IMG/VR virus record: IMGVR_UViG_3300025154_000068
Coordinates: 19,035-83,034 of that record
DNA length: 64,000 bases
Direction: 5' to 3' (one strand)
Source of the DNA: a virus
How positions within the stretch are numbered: position 1 is the first letter of the stretch; every line of letters starts with the position of its first letter. Positions 32,092 to 39,342 of the stretch are shown piece after piece. A program made the translations under genes and the position numbers. The notes under the pieces are model-generated. The model was not told the origin of the DNA and searched no databases. It saw nothing but the letters and a program-made list of their open reading frames with translations.

Positions 32092-32439
32092 TCAGTAGAT
32101 GGCGTCGGGGTCGGGCTCTTCTTCAGCCCAGGCCGCGTCTCTCGCGATGATCGCTACGGCATCCGCAGGGATGTCGGCGTCGGTCGGAGCGTATGTCGAG
32201 GTTTCGAGCTGGACTCCGACTCGCCGGGCATGCTGGTCGAGGAAGCGGTGCATGAGCCATGCGCTCAGCAGGTCGAGTGGGACATCGCCACCGGGCGCCA
32301 TTCCGACGTCGACCGGAGAGCCGAGCTCCACGCCCGCCCTGACCCGCTCAGCGAGAGGAGTCCGGCCGGTCACGAGGACGGAACCCTTGTCCGTCCAGCG
32401 CACCGTCGTGCCGTCCTCGAACTCCCACTTGTGGATCAC
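32092..32439 (-). CDS. Hypothetical protein (115 aa)
   Basis: GTG at 32439 overlaps the MuF stop (GTGA) and decides the start, giving VIHKWEFEDGTTVRWTDKG. The rest contains VELGSPVDVGMAPGGDVPL and WLMHRFLDQHARRVGVQL. The protein is small and acidic with no recognised domain. It is followed by a transcription terminator. A role in head assembly is possible from position. Confidence 0.6.
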   Translation of the reverse strand: MIHKWEFEDGTTVRWTDKGSVLVTGRTPLAERVRAGVELGSPVDVGMAPGGDVPLDLLSAWLMHRFLDQHARRVGVQLETSTYAPTDADIPADAVAIIARDAAWAEEEPDPDAIY

Positions 32440-34940
32440 GCGTAGCCTCCAAGACAACCGAGCACCCACCAGAAGTGCTCGCTGTCTTCACGGTAAGTCC
32501 AGAACGGGTCGGTCGCCACTTTTTCTGCTCCCATCGAGAGCAGTTCGGTCGCGTCGGCCTGGTAGATCTTCCCGCAGTAGGCGGAGAAGAACTTGTCGGG
32601 CTTGGCAACTTCGCTCCACCCGTACGGGATCCCCGTGAGCGCGCTCAGCGGCTTGGCAACCTCGCCGGCGGTCCGCTTTCCGAGGAATGCAACTGCGGCC
32701 TTATGCACCGAAGCGTTGAGCGTCTCGATGGCGTGCCCCCATTCGTGAATCAGGGACCGCAGGTCGTTGGCGTTGACCCGAGGCGGGGACATCCGGATAT
32801 CGCAGTAGGCCCGTCCGTTGACGAACCGGATCTGGGCCCGGCCGTCGAGCTTCTTGCTCATCATCGCGTCGTAGAACGCCTTGGCTCGATCGAGTCCAGG
32901 CATCTTGCGGGGCCGATTCGTGACCTTGGCTGTGCCCTTTGCTGAGTCGATGTTCGCGATGTGCCCAAGGATCGATGCGACTGCGTTGCCATCGTCGCCC
33001 TTGAGAAGCTCGCGCACGGACTTGTCCGGGTGGGTCTTGGCCGCTTCGACTACCGCTCTGACGCGATCGACGAGAGCCCCGGTCATCGGGCCGTCGTACT
33101 TGTCGAGGGCGTGCTTCTTGGCGATTGCCCCGACTTGCTTCGCGGTCATGTCGAGGCCCCGTTCCTGGGCCGCTCTCCCCCACGCCATCGCACGCGCAGC
33201 GTCGCCGTACTTCGAGAATTCCTTCTCCCAGTGCTCGACGGTGTGCTCAGGCTTCGGCCCCGCGCCCGACTTGGGCTTCGGCCTGGCTTCCGCCTTCTCG
33301 GGCTTCGGTGTCCGCTGAACCGGGCGCTTGTCGAGTCGCTTGAGCCTCGCCTCCAGCTCCTTGCGAATTTCCGGCGGATACTTCTTCGTGTCCGGCTTCC
33401 ACTCTGCAGCATCCGGAGTCAGACCGAACCCATCTTGCGACGGTTCCGTCGAGGGAGTCTTGGTGATGCCCTTGCGCTCGGCCTGTGACTTGCGGATCGA
33501 GCGAACTACACTGCGGCACCCAAAATGCCGAGGGGGGTAGTTCGTCTGCCACCAAGGGTGTTCGGCCGGAAGGATCGTTCCGTCGGCCTGCTCGCACATC
33601 AGCGTCACGCGATTGTCGAGGATCGCGTCGAATTGCCAGAAGGGCCGGACCTTCAGGAGCGCTGGCTCCGTCATCTGCTGGTGCCGACCTGCGTTGTACG
33701 CGAGTTGCACGTTCGTCCGGTAGATGGTATTACCTGTGTACAGACCGTTGATGGTGAAGTAGCCGTGCGCGGTAGAGAGGTTGAACACATGTCCGCGAAA
33801 TGGAACGAAGCGACGCGAGGCAACGTGATCGAACTCTATATTTCTGGCCTCAGCATCAAGCGCGTTGCATTGGAGGTTGGCGCCTCCACTGGATGGGTAG
33901 CCTCCGTGATCTCCTCCGAGGGGCTCACACGATCGCTGCGCGATGCCAGAAGACTGCACTTCGCGCGAGGTGGCAGGCCCTCGCGAGAACGAACCGACCT
34001 GCCTAGAGAACAGATCGTTCAGCGATACGTCTCCGGCGAAAGCGCCAACAGTCTTTGCGGCGCGTTCGGTGTTCACCAGGATACCATCCGGCGCATCGTT
34101 GTGTCTACGGGACTCCACTGGCGCAGCGTCGCAGAAGCCGCAACGCTTCGTGACCACGATCAGATGGCCGCACGCGGCGCAGAATCTAGGAGTCGTAAGG
34201 TTGGCCGGTTCGAAGACGTGATCGCTGATTGGATCTCGCAGCGCGGCGAATTGCCCGAAGCTCAGGTTCCTTGCAGGACGCGCAACATCGACATCGCAAT
34301 TCCCCCCGTCGCCGTGGAAGTCGTCACTGCGTCCGTGAATCCGTTCAACGTTGCCTACCTGCGCAATCGCACCGAAGATCTGCGAGATGGTGGATGGTGG
34401 TGCTGTTACGTGATTATCTCCCAGCGTACCAAGGTGCTGTTGCCCACGGTAGCCGATCAGATCGTCGCCCTCGCGAAGTTGGCCCGCGGCAACCCATCCA
34501 CGGCGCGTGAGCATTGGGTGATTCGGGGTTGCGGAGAACTTGCGGCCCGACGCGGTGACGACCTCGACAAGGGCCCCCTCGAACCACCGTCGATGAGCTG
34601 CCCTTATCACCCCTCCGCTCACAAGGGTGTCCCCGGGTAGGCACTCCACCCGCCACGCCGGATTCACGACGCTCCCAGCCCAGGCATCGAGGAGCTGCTG
34701 ACCCACACGTTTCTTGAAGTCGTCCAGCGTCTCGCCGTTGGCAACGGCCCGGTCGAGAGCGAGCAGGACATCTCGAATCACGTCGGCTTGGGCCACGCCG
34801 GCCACGGTGAACGCCTTGCGCTGAGCCCGTTCGTCGAGCAGGTCCCAAACCTTCTTTCGGACCGGAGTTCGACCGAGCAGCCAAGACGCCGCGGGAGTGA
34901 ACTCCTCGACGTCGGTGGGTGCGGCCCAGGGTGCGTTCAC
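32436..34940 (-). CDS. MuF-type head morphogenesis protein interrupted by an intein (834 aa)
   Basis: GTG at 34940 overlaps the portal stop (GTGA) and decides the start: VNAPWAAPTDVEEFTP. The exteins form a MuF protein: N-terminal LLGRTPVRKKVWDLLDERAQ, then TIYRTNVQLAYNAGRHQQMT, HPWWQTNYPPRHFGCRSVV, and a long C-terminal region with a zincin-like LRSLIHEWGHAIETLN (HExxH-like) helix. A 305-residue intein lies between Glu99 and Thr405. After splicing a 529-residue head protein would remain. MuF binds the portal vestibule and can be injected. The HEWGH motif suggests a metallopeptidase/toxin-like tail domain. Confidence 0.8.
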   Translation of the reverse strand: MNAPWAAPTDVEEFTPAASWLLGRTPVRKKVWDLLDERAQRKAFTVAGVAQADVIRDVLLALDRAVANGETLDDFKKRVGQQLLDAWAGSVVNPAWRVECLPGDTLVSGGVIRAAHRRWFEGALVEVVTASGRKFSATPNHPMLTRRGWVAAGQLREGDDLIGYRGQQHLGTLGDNHVTAPPSTISQIFGAIAQVGNVERIHGRSDDFHGDGGNCDVDVARPARNLSFGQFAALRDPISDHVFEPANLTTPRFCAACGHLIVVTKRCGFCDAAPVESRRHNDAPDGILVNTERAAKTVGAFAGDVSLNDLFSRQVGSFSRGPATSREVQSSGIAQRSCEPLGGDHGGYPSSGGANLQCNALDAEARNIEFDHVASRRFVPFRGHVFNLSTAHGYFTINGLYTGNTIYRTNVQLAYNAGRHQQMTEPALLKVRPFWQFDAILDNRVTLMCEQADGTILPAEHPWWQTNYPPRHFGCRSVVRSIRKSQAERKGITKTPSTEPSQDGFGLTPDAAEWKPDTKKYPPEIRKELEARLKRLDKRPVQRTPKPEKAEARPKPKSGAGPKPEHTVEHWEKEFSKYGDAARAMAWGRAAQERGLDMTAKQVGAIAKKHALDKYDGPMTGALVDRVRAVVEAAKTHPDKSVRELLKGDDGNAVASILGHIANIDSAKGTAKVTNRPRKMPGLDRAKAFYDAMMSKKLDGRAQIRFVNGRAYCDIRMSPPRVNANDLRSLIHEWGHAIETLNASVHKAAVAFLGKRTAGEVAKPLSALTGIPYGWSEVAKPDKFFSAYCGKIYQADATELLSMGAEKVATDPFWTYREDSEHFWWVLGCLGGYA
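33729..34643 (-). other. Intein in the MuF protein (305 aa)
   Basis: Block A begins at Cys100 (CLPGDTLVSGGVI). Block B is SATPNHPMLT with the TxxH residues Thr138 and His141. Blocks F/G are GHVFNLSTAHGYFTINGLYT ending Gly-Asn404, and the +1 extein residue is Thr405. All splicing residues are present, except that the penultimate residue is Gly, not the usual His. The middle has two CxxC pairs and no LAGLIDADG motif. A separate nuclease-like gene lies antisense within it at 33789-34640. Confidence 0.85.
33789..34640 (+). CDS. Antisense homing-endonuclease-like gene nested in the MuF intein (283 aa)
   Basis: ATG at 33789 follows a GAGAGG site; the TAG at 34638-34640 stops one base short of the intein's first codon (34641-34643 complement). 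Two helix-turn-helix units are visible: residues 11-48 (NVIELYISGLSIKRVALEVG) and 71-112 (LPREQIVQRYVSGESANSLC). Residues about 140-250 form a nuclease-like domain (RNIDIAIPPVAVEVVTASV with Asp168 and Glu177, WWCCYVIISQRTK, EHWVIRGCGEL) resembling PD-(D/E)xK/Vsr-type homing enzymes. Its codons are exact reverse complements, in register, of intein codons. It probably makes the cut that spreads the intein. Confidence 0.7.
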   Translation: MSAKWNEATRGNVIELYISGLSIKRVALEVGASTGWVASVISSEGLTRSLRDARRLHFARGGRPSRERTDLPREQIVQRYVSGESANSLCGAFGVHQDTIRRIVVSTGLHWRSVAEAATLRDHDQMAARGAESRSRKVGRFEDVIADWISQRGELPEAQVPCRTRNIDIAIPPVAVEVVTASVNPFNVAYLRNRTEDLRDGGWWCCYVIISQRTKVLLPTVADQIVALAKLARGNPSTAREHWVIRGCGELAARRGDDLDKGPLEPPSMSCPYHPSAHKGVPG

Positions 34941-36799
34941 AGGTCCTCGACGACAGCGACGCGTCCCGCGAGCTCCGCCAAGATGGTCGCCTTGTGGGCG
35001 AGTTGCTCGAATGCGGCGTTGTCCTTGACCTGCCCATAGTGCTCGGCGAGCTGCGTCCGAAGACGCTCCGGCCAATCGTCCCCGTCCTCGAGGTCGTCGA
35101 TGAGCTCGAGCAGCTTCGCCACGTCGGGCTCGATGGCGCGGGCGGTCACCTGGGCAGCGTCGGTTGCGATGTCGTCAACGAACTGCTGGCCGTTGATGAC
35201 GCCGGACGCCTTGGCTGGGTCGTCGCCAGAGGCGAGGGTGATAGAGCGCGCCGACAGCTTCGCCTCAATGATGGGTCCGACGATGCGTGGCACTTCGGCT
35301 TGCAGCACCTGGTGGAGCCTTCGCTCAGTTTCCGCCATAGCGTCAGCGACAACCGCGTCCCAGACGGGACGCCGACGGCTCGCCTTGACGTCTTCCGCAT
35401 CGTCCTGTGGCTCTGCGTCGTCCCCTTCGTTCGACGCATCCTCGTCACCTCCGAACTGCGGCGGAACCGGCGCTGGCTCCGACTCCTCCCACTCTGCCCC
35501 TTCCTCAAGAGGCATCCCGAACGTCCGTGCGTACTCGTTCTTGTCCACCGGAGCGCCCAACCCGAGCCACTTCTTCAGCGCGTCAGCGGCCTTGTCCCAC
35601 GTGGTGGCGAGTGCTGCAGTGTCCGCCGGCGGTGTCGTGTCGCGCTTCGGCCAAGGGGCCTTGCGTCCATCGCCGAAGTTGAACGCCGCCCACCACCAGA
35701 TGAGCTGCGACCGAATCGTCGTGGCGCTGGTCTCGTCGTCGGCGCGGATGATGGCCGCCGCCACCGCCGAGTGCACCTGCGCAGCGGCGTAGCTCCCGCC
35801 CTGAACCTCGGTGGAGAGGTTCTGTCCGAGGATGCGAATCGCGATGGCCGCGTTGGCCATGTTGATCTGCGCCTGGAACGTCTCCCAGGTGTCGGCGACA
35901 GCTTCGACGAGCTTCAGATCGTAGCCTGGCGGCGTAACGATCGTTGTGTCCCGCCCGAGGTCGGAGATGTCGCTCGCGAGCTCGTCGCGGTGCTCCCTGG
36001 TCGACCCCTCGTCGGTCGGGAATCCGACGAGCGTGCCCTGCCCGTGGCGCTCCGAATAGCGCCCCCAGTCGTCCCGGCCGTACTCCTTCAGGAGCCACCA
36101 GCGCGATACTGACCGCCACGCTCCTCGCGCCCACGGACGCTTGCTGCCGTACGGCGTGTACAGCAGCCACGTTCCGTCACCGGGGGTGACCTCGAGCTCG
36201 GAGCCGTCCTTCTGCCGAGCGAACCACTTGCGCTTGTCCTGGTCGTACCGAAGCGACGATGGGTGGATGACGTCGAAGCCGGGAGTCCCGTCCTCCCGGT
36301 GGGGGATGAGTCGGATTCCGCTCGGCTGCTCGACGCGCTCCCACGACGCAATCCGACCGACGCCCACACCGAGGATGATGCCCCACTCCATCCACTCGGA
36401 GAGGACGTCCTCGGGGACCATGTCCCACCAGTCCTCCTCGAGCTCCTCGAGCGGGGCGTTGGTATCCTGCTTCGGCGGCTGGAACTCGAGAGGCAGCCCC
36501 AGCAAGCCCCGGACGCGCACCTCGCGCAGACACCCGCTCACTCGGTCGTCGGCGAGAATCTCATCGCACAGCAGAGCGGCAAGCCGGAGGTTGCCGGTGT
36601 CCGCCATCGCCTCCGCACGCTTGATGAGCGTGGGCGACCACTCGATTGACGACGAACGGACGGACGACTCGATGAACGGCGCAGGTTTCGGGATGCGCGG
36701 CACAACAGTCGCAGCGAGCGACACGGCACTGGCGATAGCGAGCACACGCCTCCCCACTTGCGTGAGAGTCGTCGATGCTCTGGTTCGCCAGTGGGTCAT
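34937..36799 (-). CDS. Portal protein, DUF935/Mu gp29-like (620 aa)
   Basis: The family is recognisable from SGCLREVRVRGLLGLPLEFQ, WGIILGVGVGRIASWERVEQ, DGTPGFDVIHPSSLRYDQD, LLYTPYGSKRPWARGAWRS and DDWGRYSERHGQGTLVGFPT, all typical of DUF935 portals. The portal ring is the DNA gate and the docking site for terminase and neck. The C-terminal third adds an acidic linker and a helical domain (RRLHQVLQAEVPRIVGPII). The gene is 4 bases after terminase and overlaps MuF by GTGA. Confidence 0.85.
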   Translation of the reverse strand: MTHWRTRASTTLTQVGRRVLAIASAVSLAATVVPRIPKPAPFIESSVRSSSIEWSPTLIKRAEAMADTGNLRLAALLCDEILADDRVSGCLREVRVRGLLGLPLEFQPPKQDTNAPLEELEEDWWDMVPEDVLSEWMEWGIILGVGVGRIASWERVEQPSGIRLIPHREDGTPGFDVIHPSSLRYDQDKRKWFARQKDGSELEVTPGDGTWLLYTPYGSKRPWARGAWRSVSRWWLLKEYGRDDWGRYSERHGQGTLVGFPTDEGSTREHRDELASDISDLGRDTTIVTPPGYDLKLVEAVADTWETFQAQINMANAAIAIRILGQNLSTEVQGGSYAAAQVHSAVAAAIIRADDETSATTIRSQLIWWWAAFNFGDGRKAPWPKRDTTPPADTAALATTWDKAADALKKWLGLGAPVDKNEYARTFGMPLEEGAEWEESEPAPVPPQFGGDEDASNEGDDAEPQDDAEDVKASRRRPVWDAVVADAMAETERRLHQVLQAEVPRIVGPIIEAKLSARSITLASGDDPAKASGVINGQQFVDDIATDAAQVTARAIEPDVAKLLELIDDLEDGDDWPERLRTQLAEHYGQVKDNAAFEQLAHKATILAELAGRVAVVEDL

Positions 36800-36803
36800 T
36801 CGG

Positions 36804-38933
36804 TTACCGTCTGCTTCCGCCTCGCGCTGACCTGCTCGATGGTCGGCCCCGCCGGAGTCCGTCGTAGTCCTGGAGCTTCTTGTTCAGGTCGAGGGCAGTG
36901 ATGCCCCACACGAGAGCGTCGACCCTGTCTGGCGATGTCTCATCGTTCGCTGGGTCCCATCCGCACTGCTGGTCCTCGAGCTTCGGCAGCGTTCCCACGT
37001 GGTGGACTCTTCCCTTCTCGTAAAGGGTCGAGATCGGGTCTGCCCGGGTTGCCTTGCCCCGCGACGCGTGAACGGCCTTGAACGGCACACCCTGGCGCTC
37101 GGCTTGGACGTTGCGCTCGACAAGGTCTCCACCGTTGTTGACCTCGCCGATGATGTAGTCCGCTTCCCAGCGGTCGAAGGCCTCGAGAGCTCGCGCTGCC
37201 CATTGCGCTGGCGAGAAGACCCCGGAGAGGTCATCGAGAACGTAGGCGTGCCCGTCCTCGCCCAGGCCGACGACGATGATGCCGGTCTCGTTGCTCTTCG
37301 GGTTGGTCGATACCGCCGGGTCGATGGCGACGACCACCCGCCGCATGGGCGGGAGCGCGGGCGAGTACGACCCATCGTCATTGACCCTGAGTCGAAGGTC
37401 ATCAATCCGAGTGCGCTGCCAGAGCGCGTTCGGGTTGTCCTCGAGAATCTCGGCATCGATTTCCTGCCTGCCGAGCCTCGTCCCCTCGTACTCGGTGAGG
37501 ATGGAGGCGAAGAACGGCTTAGCGAGGTTCGACCGATTCTCGTAGGTCGAGCCCTTCGTAAGGGCGACATCCGCGCCTGCACGCTTGACGAGCTTCTTGA
37601 TCGTCGCGATCGGCCTGGGCGTCGTCGTGACGATGCCTTGCGGATTCGTTCCGAGCCGGAACCCGAACTGCAGCTGCGTCCACGCTTCCTGGAAGCGCCA
37701 GGCCGCAACTTCGTCCGCCCAAAACGTGTCGCAGTTGTGAACGAGAATCCCGTTGGCGAAGTACTCCGGCAGGCCCTCAACCGTGAGGTTGAACACCCGT
37801 CGAACGCCAACGTGCTCCCAGGTTGACGCAACGCTGACTGCAGTACCGTCCGCGCCTTGACACGAACTCTCGCCCGCAGTGCTCGCACTTCCGGGTGCTC
37901 CTTCTGGCCTCGTCCGCGCGCTTCTGTTGGCACGCAGGGCACGCCGATGTGAAGCCGCCCCGCTTCCTGGGGAATGGCTTGCCGCAGTCCGAACAATCGA
38001 TGTCGAACACCTCTCGTGACTCGACGTGCCTGTCGTAGTGCGTTCTGGGTGGCACGCACTCGAGGTTCTCGATCGCGTTGTTCGCCCGGTTGCCGTCCTT
38101 GTGATGGATGTGCCAACCAGGCGGGATCGGCCCGAGTTCCTGCTCCCAGATGACCCGGTGTTGGATGTAGTGGCGACCGTTCGCGTAGCCGATGACGTAT
38201 CCGTTCGCTCCAACGCGCCAACGAATACCCTCAAGCCCTTCGTCAGCTTGCCGAGTGGTACCCATTGTTCGCAAGATAAGACCGGATGATCGGCTGTGCC
38301 AGTGAGAGAAGCCCCGTTTGAGAAGCTGACGACGCCTACCTCGGCATCGTTCGAACCCGTTGCTACAACCGGTCGAAGACCATGTCTCGTTACGACCAAA
38401 TCGCCAACGGCAATGGCCTCGATCGGTCTGGGCCCCGCCTCGGTCTCGACAAGCGTTCCAGCGACGAAGCACTGCGGACCGCGCAGTCGATCGGGTCGGT
38501 CGGCCGACAGGATGGTGGCAACAGCCCCGTTGGGCCATGTCAGCCGCCGCTTCGATGGCTCGTAGTGCGGCTTGAACCACGGAGGCGAGATCGTCAGAAG
38601 TCCCGACTCGCCCTCGAGCATGACGTCGCGCGCATCCGCGGACGTCGCTGCGATCAGGGTGATTCGCTTGGACTCACCTGATTCAACCTTGCCTCGGATC
38701 CACTCGGCGCCAGTGCGGGTTTTCCCGAACCCGCGGCCCGCGAGGATGACCCAGATGACCCACGCCCACACGGGCGGGAGCTGCTTGTCGCGAGCCCAGA
38801 GACCTTGCCAGTCATACAGAAGCGTCCGAGCCGCTTCGTCCGGCAGCGTCGCTATCGCTTGCCGTACCTGGCTCGGACTCATCTGGCGGAGCAAGCTTCG
38901 CAATCGCTTCTGCGAGCTGGCTCCTTGCATCAT
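36804..38933 (-). CDS. Terminase large subunit interrupted by an intein (709 aa)
   Basis: The ATPase domain has Walker A GRGFGKT (residues 66-72). The Walker B/DE box DTFWADEVAAW comes directly after the intein. The C-terminal RNase H-like nuclease shows VVVAIDPAVSTNPKSNETG (Asp538), YIIGEVNNGGDLVERNV and SPDRVDALVWGI. It drives DNA packaging and cuts the genome. A 246-residue intein separates GPQ from CDTFWADE at the ATPase centre; the spliced protein would have 463 residues. The start overlaps TerS by about 120 bases; ATGs at 38933 and 38930 are both possible. Confidence 0.9.
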   Translation of the reverse strand: MMQGASSQKRLRSLLRQMSPSQVRQAIATLPDEAARTLLYDWQGLWARDKQLPPVWAWVIWVILAGRGFGKTRTGAEWIRGKVESGESKRITLIAATSADARDVMLEGESGLLTISPPWFKPHYEPSKRRLTWPNGAVATILSADRPDRLRGPQCFVAGTLVETEAGPRPIEAIAVGDLVVTRHGLRPVVATGSNDAEVGVVSFSNGASLTGTADHPVLSCEQWVPLGKLTKGLRVFVGALERTDTSSATRTVATTSNTGSSGSRNSGRSRLVGTSITRTATGRTTRSRTSSACHPERTTTGTSSHERCSTSIVRTAASHSPGSGAASHRRALRANRSARTRPEGAPGSASTAGESSCQGADGTAVSVASTWEHVGVRRVFNLTVEGLPEYFANGILVHNCDTFWADEVAAWRFQEAWTQLQFGFRLGTNPQGIVTTTPRPIATIKKLVKRAGADVALTKGSTYENRSNLAKPFFASILTEYEGTRLGRQEIDAEILEDNPNALWQRTRIDDLRLRVNDDGSYSPALPPMRRVVVAIDPAVSTNPKSNETGIIVVGLGEDGHAYVLDDLSGVFSPAQWAARALEAFDRWEADYIIGEVNNGGDLVERNVQAERQGVPFKAVHASRGKATRADPISTLYEKGRVHHVGTLPKLEDQQCGWDPANDETSPDRVDALVWGITALDLNKKLQDYDGLRRGRPSSRSARGGSRR
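37734..38471 (-). other. Intein in TerL (246 aa)
   Basis: Block A starts at Cys155 (CFVAGTLVETEAGPRPIEAI). Block B is SLTGTADHPVLS (Thr213, His216). Blocks F/G are VFNLTVEGLPEYFANGILVH plus Asn400, followed by Cys401 as the +1 nucleophile. All canonical residues, including penultimate His, are present, so splicing should work. The linker between B and F (about residues 242-370) is Ser/Thr/Arg-rich and looks like an out-of-frame reading of the HNH gene nested there. Confidence 0.9.
37777..38265 (-). CDS. HNH homing endonuclease nested out of frame in the TerL intein (162 aa)
   Basis: ATG at 38265 gives MGTTRQADEGLEGIRWRVGA. The HNH core is GWHIHHKDGNRANNAIENLE (residues 50-69) with the usual His-His, Asn and Asn-x-x-x-N pattern. 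Two zinc-finger pairs follow (C91/C94 with C109/C112, and C127/C130 with C142/C146), as in I-HmuI-like enzymes. It reads in the -1 frame relative to the intein, ends inside intein block F, and cannot be part of the intein protein. No clear ribosome site is seen, so translation may be by reinitiation. Confidence 0.75.
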   Translation of the reverse strand: MGTTRQADEGLEGIRWRVGANGYVIGYANGRHYIQHRVIWEQELGPIPPGWHIHHKDGNRANNAIENLECVPPRTHYDRHVESREVFDIDCSDCGKPFPRKRGGFTSACPACQQKRADEARRSTRKCEHCGREFVSRRGRYCSQRCVNLGARWRSTGVQPHG

Positions 38934-39342
38934 CAATCTCGATTGCTCCGCCGTCTGGACCGCTCACCTCGGAGCGGGATGGCGCATCCGTGCCGAGCAG
39001 TCGAGCTCGCCGCTCCTCGATCCGGAGGGCTGTGTCGATGGCCCTCGGGTCTCCACGCCTCACCTTGCCGCGCAGTGCCCAGAGCATTCCGTCGAGGCGG
39101 ATGAGCATCAGGTCCCGGACGTCCTCTGCGGACTCCTCCGTCTGCTCCCGAAGCTCAGCGAACTGCTTCTGGACAAGCTTCCAGGCCGCTTGCTTGGAGA
39201 TGCCGAGCGCCTTGCCGATCGCGGGATAACTCGCGCCAGTGCGCTTCAAGTCGAGTGCCTTGGCGGCTCGGTCGATCGTGCGCACCTTCCGCGGCGTGAC
39301 CTTGGTCGTCTTCGCCTTGGCCTTCGCCGTCTTCTTCTGCAT
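38812..39342 (-). CDS. Terminase small subunit (176 aa)
   Basis: The ATG at 39342 gives a Lys-rich N-terminus followed by a helix-turn-helix (YPAIGKALGISKQAAWKLVQ) and an oligomerisation helix (TEESAEDVRDLMLIRLDGML). Such proteins bind the packaging site and feed DNA to TerL. The acidic C-terminal tail overlaps the TerL start. The pac site usually lies in or near this gene. Confidence 0.75.
   Translation of the reverse strand: MQKKTAKAKAKTTKVTPRKVRTIDRAAKALDLKRTGASYPAIGKALGISKQAAWKLVQKQFAELREQTEESAEDVRDLMLIRLDGMLWALRGKVRRGDPRAIDTALRIEERRARLLGTDAPSRSEVSGPDGGAIEIDDARSQLAEAIAKLAPPDESEPGTASDSDAAGRSGSDASV

Follow-up and report, generated by a model that had tools for sequence, protein, structure and literature searches.

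The terminase large subunit (TerL) gene of a virus with an 83-kb record in IMG/VR (IMGVR_UViG_3300025154_000068) very probably carries a homing intein with its endonuclease in an overlapping gene, which lies in another reading frame and is translated from its own start. The window analyzed here is a 64,000-nt stretch of that record. As we picture the system, ribosomes starting at TerL would read straight through to give a TerL-intein protein, from which the HINT domain would excise itself to leave intact TerL, and the in-frame linker would be translated filler that need only be free of stop codons. Other ribosomes would initiate inside the intein, at an embedded ribosome binding site (RBS) and a start codon in the −1 frame, and produce a free HNH/zinc-ribbon nuclease (a step suggested by the enrichment of Shine-Dalgarno [SD] sites across the family). 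The nuclease would then cleave intein-free copies of TerL in related phages, where repair would copy the whole element in. In such a system, the splicing and invasion functions of a homing intein are split into two proteins encoded in the same DNA, and thus each could be regulated, lost, or swapped on its own.

The TerL ORF is on the minus strand at 36804-38936 (Pfam Terminase_6N, E = 1.4e-22; Terminase_6C, E = 2.9e-12), with candidate starts at TTG 38936, ATG 38933, and ATG 38930. The intein (738 nt, 246 aa; 37734-38471, minus strand) is recognized by Hint_2 (E = 1.5e-9), Intein_splicing, and TIGR01443 intein_Cterm, and its junction was placed using the empty site of a relative (L181, see below). 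It is inserted between GPQ and CDTFWADEVAAW, immediately ahead of the Walker B region of TerL. A prior sequence-only reading of this DNA had credited the intein with complete splicing blocks, and these are indeed present, with all coordinates holding: Cys1, the block B motif TADH (a T-x-x-H, with H62), and the terminal His245-Asn246 followed by Cys+1. The catalytic residues C1, H62, and N246 are invariant in 54 aligned nested inteins. In an AlphaFold model run on the intein alignment, the HINT N-terminal splicing domain (residues 1-85, with Cys1 of block A and TADH of block B; 38217-38471, minus strand) has block pLDDT values of 96-98 over residues 1-80, and the C-terminal splicing domain (residues 209-246, blocks F and G; 37734-37847, minus strand; TIGR01443, E = 4.7e-6) has values of 95-98 from residue 211. 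The linker that joins them in frame (about residues 86-208; 37848-38216, minus strand) occupies the slot of an in-frame homing endonuclease. It is Ser/Thr/Arg-rich, as had been noted, with a pLDDT of about 45-59 and no predicted secondary structure. The best solved match of the intein is gp41-1, both by fold (6qaz, E = 3.5e-7) and by profile (E = 1.5e-22). Given the intact motifs and predicted fold, the HINT domain probably splices itself out and leaves intact TerL.

The same DNA encodes an HNH endonuclease of 162 aa in the −1 frame (37777-38265, minus strand), running from ATG 38265 to a TGA at 37777-37779 (Pfam HNH_3, E = 2e-18). Where the sequence-only reading saw two zinc-finger pairs, the protein has a zinc-ribbon region with two Cys4 clusters (residues 91-146; 37828-37995, minus strand). 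In the 40-row alignment A3, C91, C94, C109, and C112 of this region are invariant, and C146 is nearly so. The catalytic core (residues 36-75, HIHHKDGNRANNAIENLE; 38041-38160, minus strand) has H54, H55, N63, N67, and L68 invariant in the same alignment. The predicted fold is confident (AlphaFold mean pLDDT 88.6), and the best solved match, distant but consistent, is I-HmuI (1u3e; fold E = 2e-3, profile E = 1.9e-4). With its HNH core and DNA-binding module, the protein has the composition of an HNH_3/I-HmuI-type enzyme. The coordinates of the two frames give a dual-coding overlap of about 17 codons between the HNH N-terminus and the HINT N-domain (38217-38265, minus strand) and another of about 23 codons between the HNH C-terminus (the last Cys cluster and the stop) and the HINT C-domain (37777-37847, minus strand). 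The HNH gene does end inside block F, its TGA falling at the V-E of intein residues ~231-232, and the TerL frame is open through the whole of it, both as originally read.

To place this arrangement among its relatives, viral contigs were scanned with the HNH, which gave 80 loci; later viral, bacterial, and phage loci were added, and clustering of the HNHs at 85% identity yielded 111 non-redundant clusters. In 73 of these, including that of the window phage (L001), the HNH is nested at −1 between complete intein halves within one ORF. The remaining clusters comprise one in the other same-strand register (L077), four at −1 with a single intein half detected, one disrupted locus (L092), and 32 in which an intein was not detected. 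In-frame HNH-intein fusions, named in the sequence-only reading as the kind of relative that would speak against it, were found in none of the 111 clusters (two viral scans and one genome scan). Among the first 80 loci, the HNH is out of frame wherever an intein half was found, at −1 in all cases except L077. Pfam searches of host ORFs found terminase domains in many and an intein domain in 39 of 43. By inspection, there are two insertion sites in TerL, one just before Walker B, as in the window, and one at the Asp motif of the C-terminal nuclease (DH|CxDALRY-like). Because the search started from the TerL intein, the absence of other host genes may be a matter of ascertainment. The layout also occurs in the named phages Tetrasphaera phage TJE1, Acinetobacter phage Highwayman, and Rhodobacteraceae phage LS06-2018-MD07, in whose records TerL is annotated and the nested gene is missing, and it is shared by the archaeal plasmid Halobacterium pGSL19_54.9. 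Because this layout recurs in so many phages, it can be taken as genuine and as a scarcely documented design for a mobile intein.

Some individual loci deserve mention. The single HNH in the other same-strand register (L077:1917-2421) has no host-frame stops, compared with about 12 expected. In Megasphaera cerevisiae DSM 20462 (L092:3104-4128), the N-terminal intein half (IntN) stops, the HNH comes next, and the C-terminal half (IntC) is in another frame, thus this is either a split or a broken copy. A 1146-aa TerL ORF (L031:4720-6726) apparently contains two tandem inteins, the first with a nested HNH. The TerL genes of L231-L234 have another insertion of ~750 bp (about 3788-4548 in L231), to which the intein and HNH profiles give no match.

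Evidence for mobility comes from close relatives. A TerL protein 97% identical to that of the window (L181) has no intein and is empty exactly at GPQ|C, with an ungapped alignment; an HNH match is absent from its 13-kb contig. Two further relatives (L182 and L199, TerL 76% identical) also have an empty site, with a marginal HNH match, and two others (L004 and L005, 65% identical) have a diverged intein copy at the same TerL site, so the relatives with the same overlap that the sequence-only reading had proposed to look for do exist. Divergence between L181 and the window is 13%-14% in the 300 bp upstream of the insertion (38472-38771) and 1%-4% in the 300 bp downstream (37434-37733). Such unevenness beside the junction would fit recombination near the site, although it is not proof. 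Overall, we infer homing from one very close and exact empty site, scattered presence, and membership of a homing-endonuclease family.

Not all members of the HNH family are nested. Full-length HNH relatives without an intein lie directly downstream from TerL in six loci (L071, L086-L088, L142, and L270). These genes are near the C-terminal intein site, an arrangement that resembles collaborative homing. In a quick tree, nested and intein-free HNHs are mixed, and the best-supported branches force at least three changes, most branches being weak; a single origin of nesting would have to accommodate this interleaving, in a tree with few well-supported branches. In Vibrio phages 1.245.O and 1.238.A (L085 and L239; 2459-3449), the host frame has 14 stops across the HNH, and there are three ORFs: TerL-IntN; the HNH, which is at −1, overlaps IntN, and starts at an ATG with an SD energy of −5.8 kcal/mol; and IntC-TerL-C, with its own SD (−9.3 kcal/mol). 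The arrangement resembles a fractured TerL gene in which the HNH separates the two halves of a split intein. The coexistence of freestanding, nested, and fractured states in one HNH family suggests a possible pathway, in which a freestanding homing gene beside its target would become a nested gene in an intein and then give rise to fractured genes and gp41-1-type split inteins, which are widely used in protein engineering.

The freestanding relatives also bear on the alternative that the HNH is a packaging nuclease working with the terminase, or an independent homing gene that came to lie inside a mini-intein by chance. Some HNH proteins encoded close to terminase genes have a part in packaging (Kala et al. 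2014, as cited in PMC12613952), HK97 being one such case (PMC10448857). The intein-free genes directly downstream from TerL, and their interleaving with nested ones in the tree, are in keeping with this idea. The same is true of the weak correlation between intein and HNH distances (Mantel rho 0.10, p = 0.037; the distances may be saturated), which shows no strong co-divergence and means that intein and HNH may have been reshuffled instead of persisting together as a single old unit. However, the nearly identical, element-free L181 has no HNH match in its contig, the match in L182 and L199 is marginal, and the best solved relative of the HNH is a homing endonuclease. We therefore regard a packaging or chance-inserted nuclease as unlikely, though it is the strongest of the competing explanations.

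The sequence-only reading held that the HNH must be translated separately. Logically this goes too far, since a −1 frameshift would be another way into the HNH frame; the part that stands is that start sites favor separate translation. An HNH-frame ATG is present upstream of the HNH in 40 of 44 representatives. The first such ATG has a mean SD energy of −5.70 kcal/mol, compared with −1.66 for other-frame ATGs and −2.10 for the hosts' internal Met codons (p = 5e-8 and 5e-9, respectively), and energies of −8 kcal/mol or below occur at 27.5% of these first ATGs vs. 0% and 0.9% in the two controls. The enrichment was replicated in 30 clusters from later searches (p = 1e-4). Under the frameshifting alternative, ribosomes would undergo a programmed −1 shift at a slippery sequence within the N-terminal HINT domain and so produce a fusion of the N-terminal intein portion and the HNH. 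The register is nearly always −1, the frame that a −1 shift reaches, and X XXY YYZ heptamers in the correct register occur in 12 of 44 loci; but heptamers are equally frequent in wrong registers (12/44), strong SD sites are found at HNH-frame ATGs, and L077 uses the other same-strand frame. Programmed frameshifting was thus rejected, and we consider it very unlikely. Internal initiation is the best-supported route for the family, given the SD sites and the lack of heptamer enrichment. For the window copy it is reasonable but less certain: ATG 38265 has a weak SD (−2.2 kcal/mol), although the aligned position in the 65%-identical relative L004 is a TTG with GGGAGG ahead of it.

The weak SD in the window could also be taken as a sign that the HNH frame is an unexpressed relic, the intein persisting as a mini-intein with a junk linker. 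This must be weighed against the composition of, and selection on, the two frames. In the overlap core, GC content by codon position is 0.60/0.49/0.81 in the HNH frame vs. 0.50/0.81/0.60 in the TerL frame; the former resembles the TerL C-extein (0.65/0.48/0.81), which is the usual pattern of the phage. The catalytic and zinc residues are intact in the window, and substitutions between L001 and L004 number 21, 11, and 37 at the three HNH codon positions. It should be noted that for the window sequence alone, the open TerL frame across the HNH is not significant (P = 0.20, synonymous shuffling) and could be luck, hence the case rests on the relatives. There, the signal is plain. With expected numbers obtained by shuffling synonymous codons within each HNH, the intein frame in the 73 nested clusters contains 0 stops over the length of the HNH domains vs. 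161.7 expected, whereas the third frame is near expectation (1098 vs. 1147.5), and stop avoidance is absent in the 32 clusters without a detected intein (130 vs. 135.2). A Poisson figure (about 1e-70) overstates independence, because the clusters are related, yet the contrast is still evident. Across 175 pairs, substitutions by HNH codon position are 9336/7920/14,285, highest at the third position, and identity over the same bases is 0.50 in the HNH frame vs. 0.26 in the intein frame, with HNH identity the higher in 175 of 175 pairs. These codon-position and identity data point to the HNH as the protein under constraint in the overlap core, the linker being held mainly to remaining open. The overlap is also kept across very diverged phages. 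We give the relic explanation slightly less credence than frameshifting. As for why the −1 register recurs, it is presumably because few codon changes are needed to keep the intein frame open, the expected number of stops per gene being about two in the −1 frame vs. about 16 in the other same-strand frame. Finally, indels that split an ordinary in-frame HNH intein are possible in metagenome assemblies, but we found no specific support for them, and sequencing error can be dismissed as practically negligible because the arrangement persists in isolate genomes as well as in dozens of relatives that have diverged, and two separate contigs (L002 and L003) carry an identical copy. On the available evidence, the refutation by corrected reads named in the sequence-only reading fails.

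An intein with a separately initiated, overlapping endonuclease gene, the reading we prefer, shares features with several known systems. As in classical homing inteins, the endonuclease coding region lies between the HINT halves, and the insertion is close to conserved motifs of the active site in an essential gene; there, however, the endonuclease is part of the intein polypeptide, whereas here it is separate, with the HNH at −1 and the linker disordered. Fractured genes with split inteins and a free endonuclease between the halves were reportedly described by Dassa and coworkers in 2009, the endonucleases being said to belong to a Vsr-like family, and gp41-1, the nearest solved intein by profile and fold, is presumably one of these split inteins. 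A free endonuclease between intein halves is common to both systems, and Vibrio phages 1.245.O and 1.238.A are fractured with this very HNH family, but TerL and its intein in the window form one continuous ORF. The likeness to I-HmuI is in the HNH core. I-HmuI is encoded in a group I intron, and its DNA-binding part differs from the zinc ribbons of the nested HNH.

The closest precedent is ShiLan, in which a zinc-finger HNH is hidden out of frame within an insertion in a phage methylase (Arsenault, Gosselin, Gogarten 2025, PMC11855218). The TerL element is like it in having an out-of-frame HNH, an insertion open in the host frame, and a scattered, homing-like distribution. The systems differ in that splicing motifs and fold are not detectable in the ShiLan insertion, which sits in methylases, whereas here there is a complete intein in TerL. 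Also, an RBS was not found in ShiLan and leaderless initiation was proposed (PMC11855218), in contrast to the SD sites enriched across the TerL-intein HNH family. In passages of Kelley et al. 2016 (PMC5050341), mycobacteriophage TerL figures as a hotspot for inteins, which insert into its ATPase domain, and those passages report no out-of-frame HNH. In the full-text literature searched, we found no intein with an out-of-frame endonuclease, although doi 10.1101/2025.01.02.630785 or Dassa et al. 2009 may anticipate it. Judged from the sequences, these are familiar parts in an unusual arrangement, the idea of a hidden HNH being combined with a complete intein and, in the family, an apparent embedded RBS. 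In practical terms, mini-inteins with disordered linkers may hide active endonucleases, given that the isolate annotations checked miss the nested gene, and cultured phages, Tetrasphaera phage TJE1 among them, offer a direct way to test how hidden endonucleases are translated.

It is about an even bet, in our view, that homing endonucleases translated independently from an overlapping frame make up a third, widespread architecture of mobile inteins, alongside in-frame fusions and fractured or split genes, and that they are a likely step between freestanding endonuclease genes beside TerL and fractured split-intein genes. This architecture would have two forms, same-strand −1 (TerL) and antisense (MuF), both in the phage studied here. 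The second form would be represented by a MuF-like head gene (32436-35075, minus strand) that carries a second intein (about 33732-34643, minus strand). Opposite nearly the full length of this intein is an antisense ORF for an HTH protein (33789-34640, plus strand; HTH_28, E = 4e-7), in which a motif resembles, by eye, a possible PD-(D/E)xK/Vsr-type nuclease. The intein halves opposite the ORF were inspected in the window and in L243. Relatives that keep the antisense ORF opposite head genes include Gordonia phages Vivi2, Fosterous, and Angelicage and a Vibrio phage (H2), where the gene is annotated as hypothetical. Synonymous shuffling is uninformative for this ORF, since reordering its own codons can never place a stop in the frame opposite; we relied instead on substitutions by codon position, comparing 12 pairs (the near-identical L250/L251 were left out). 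In all 12, substitutions are highest at the antisense third position (the first position in the MuF frame), and identity is higher for the antisense than for the sense protein (e.g., 0.88 vs. 0.80), which suggests that the antisense ORF is a real gene.
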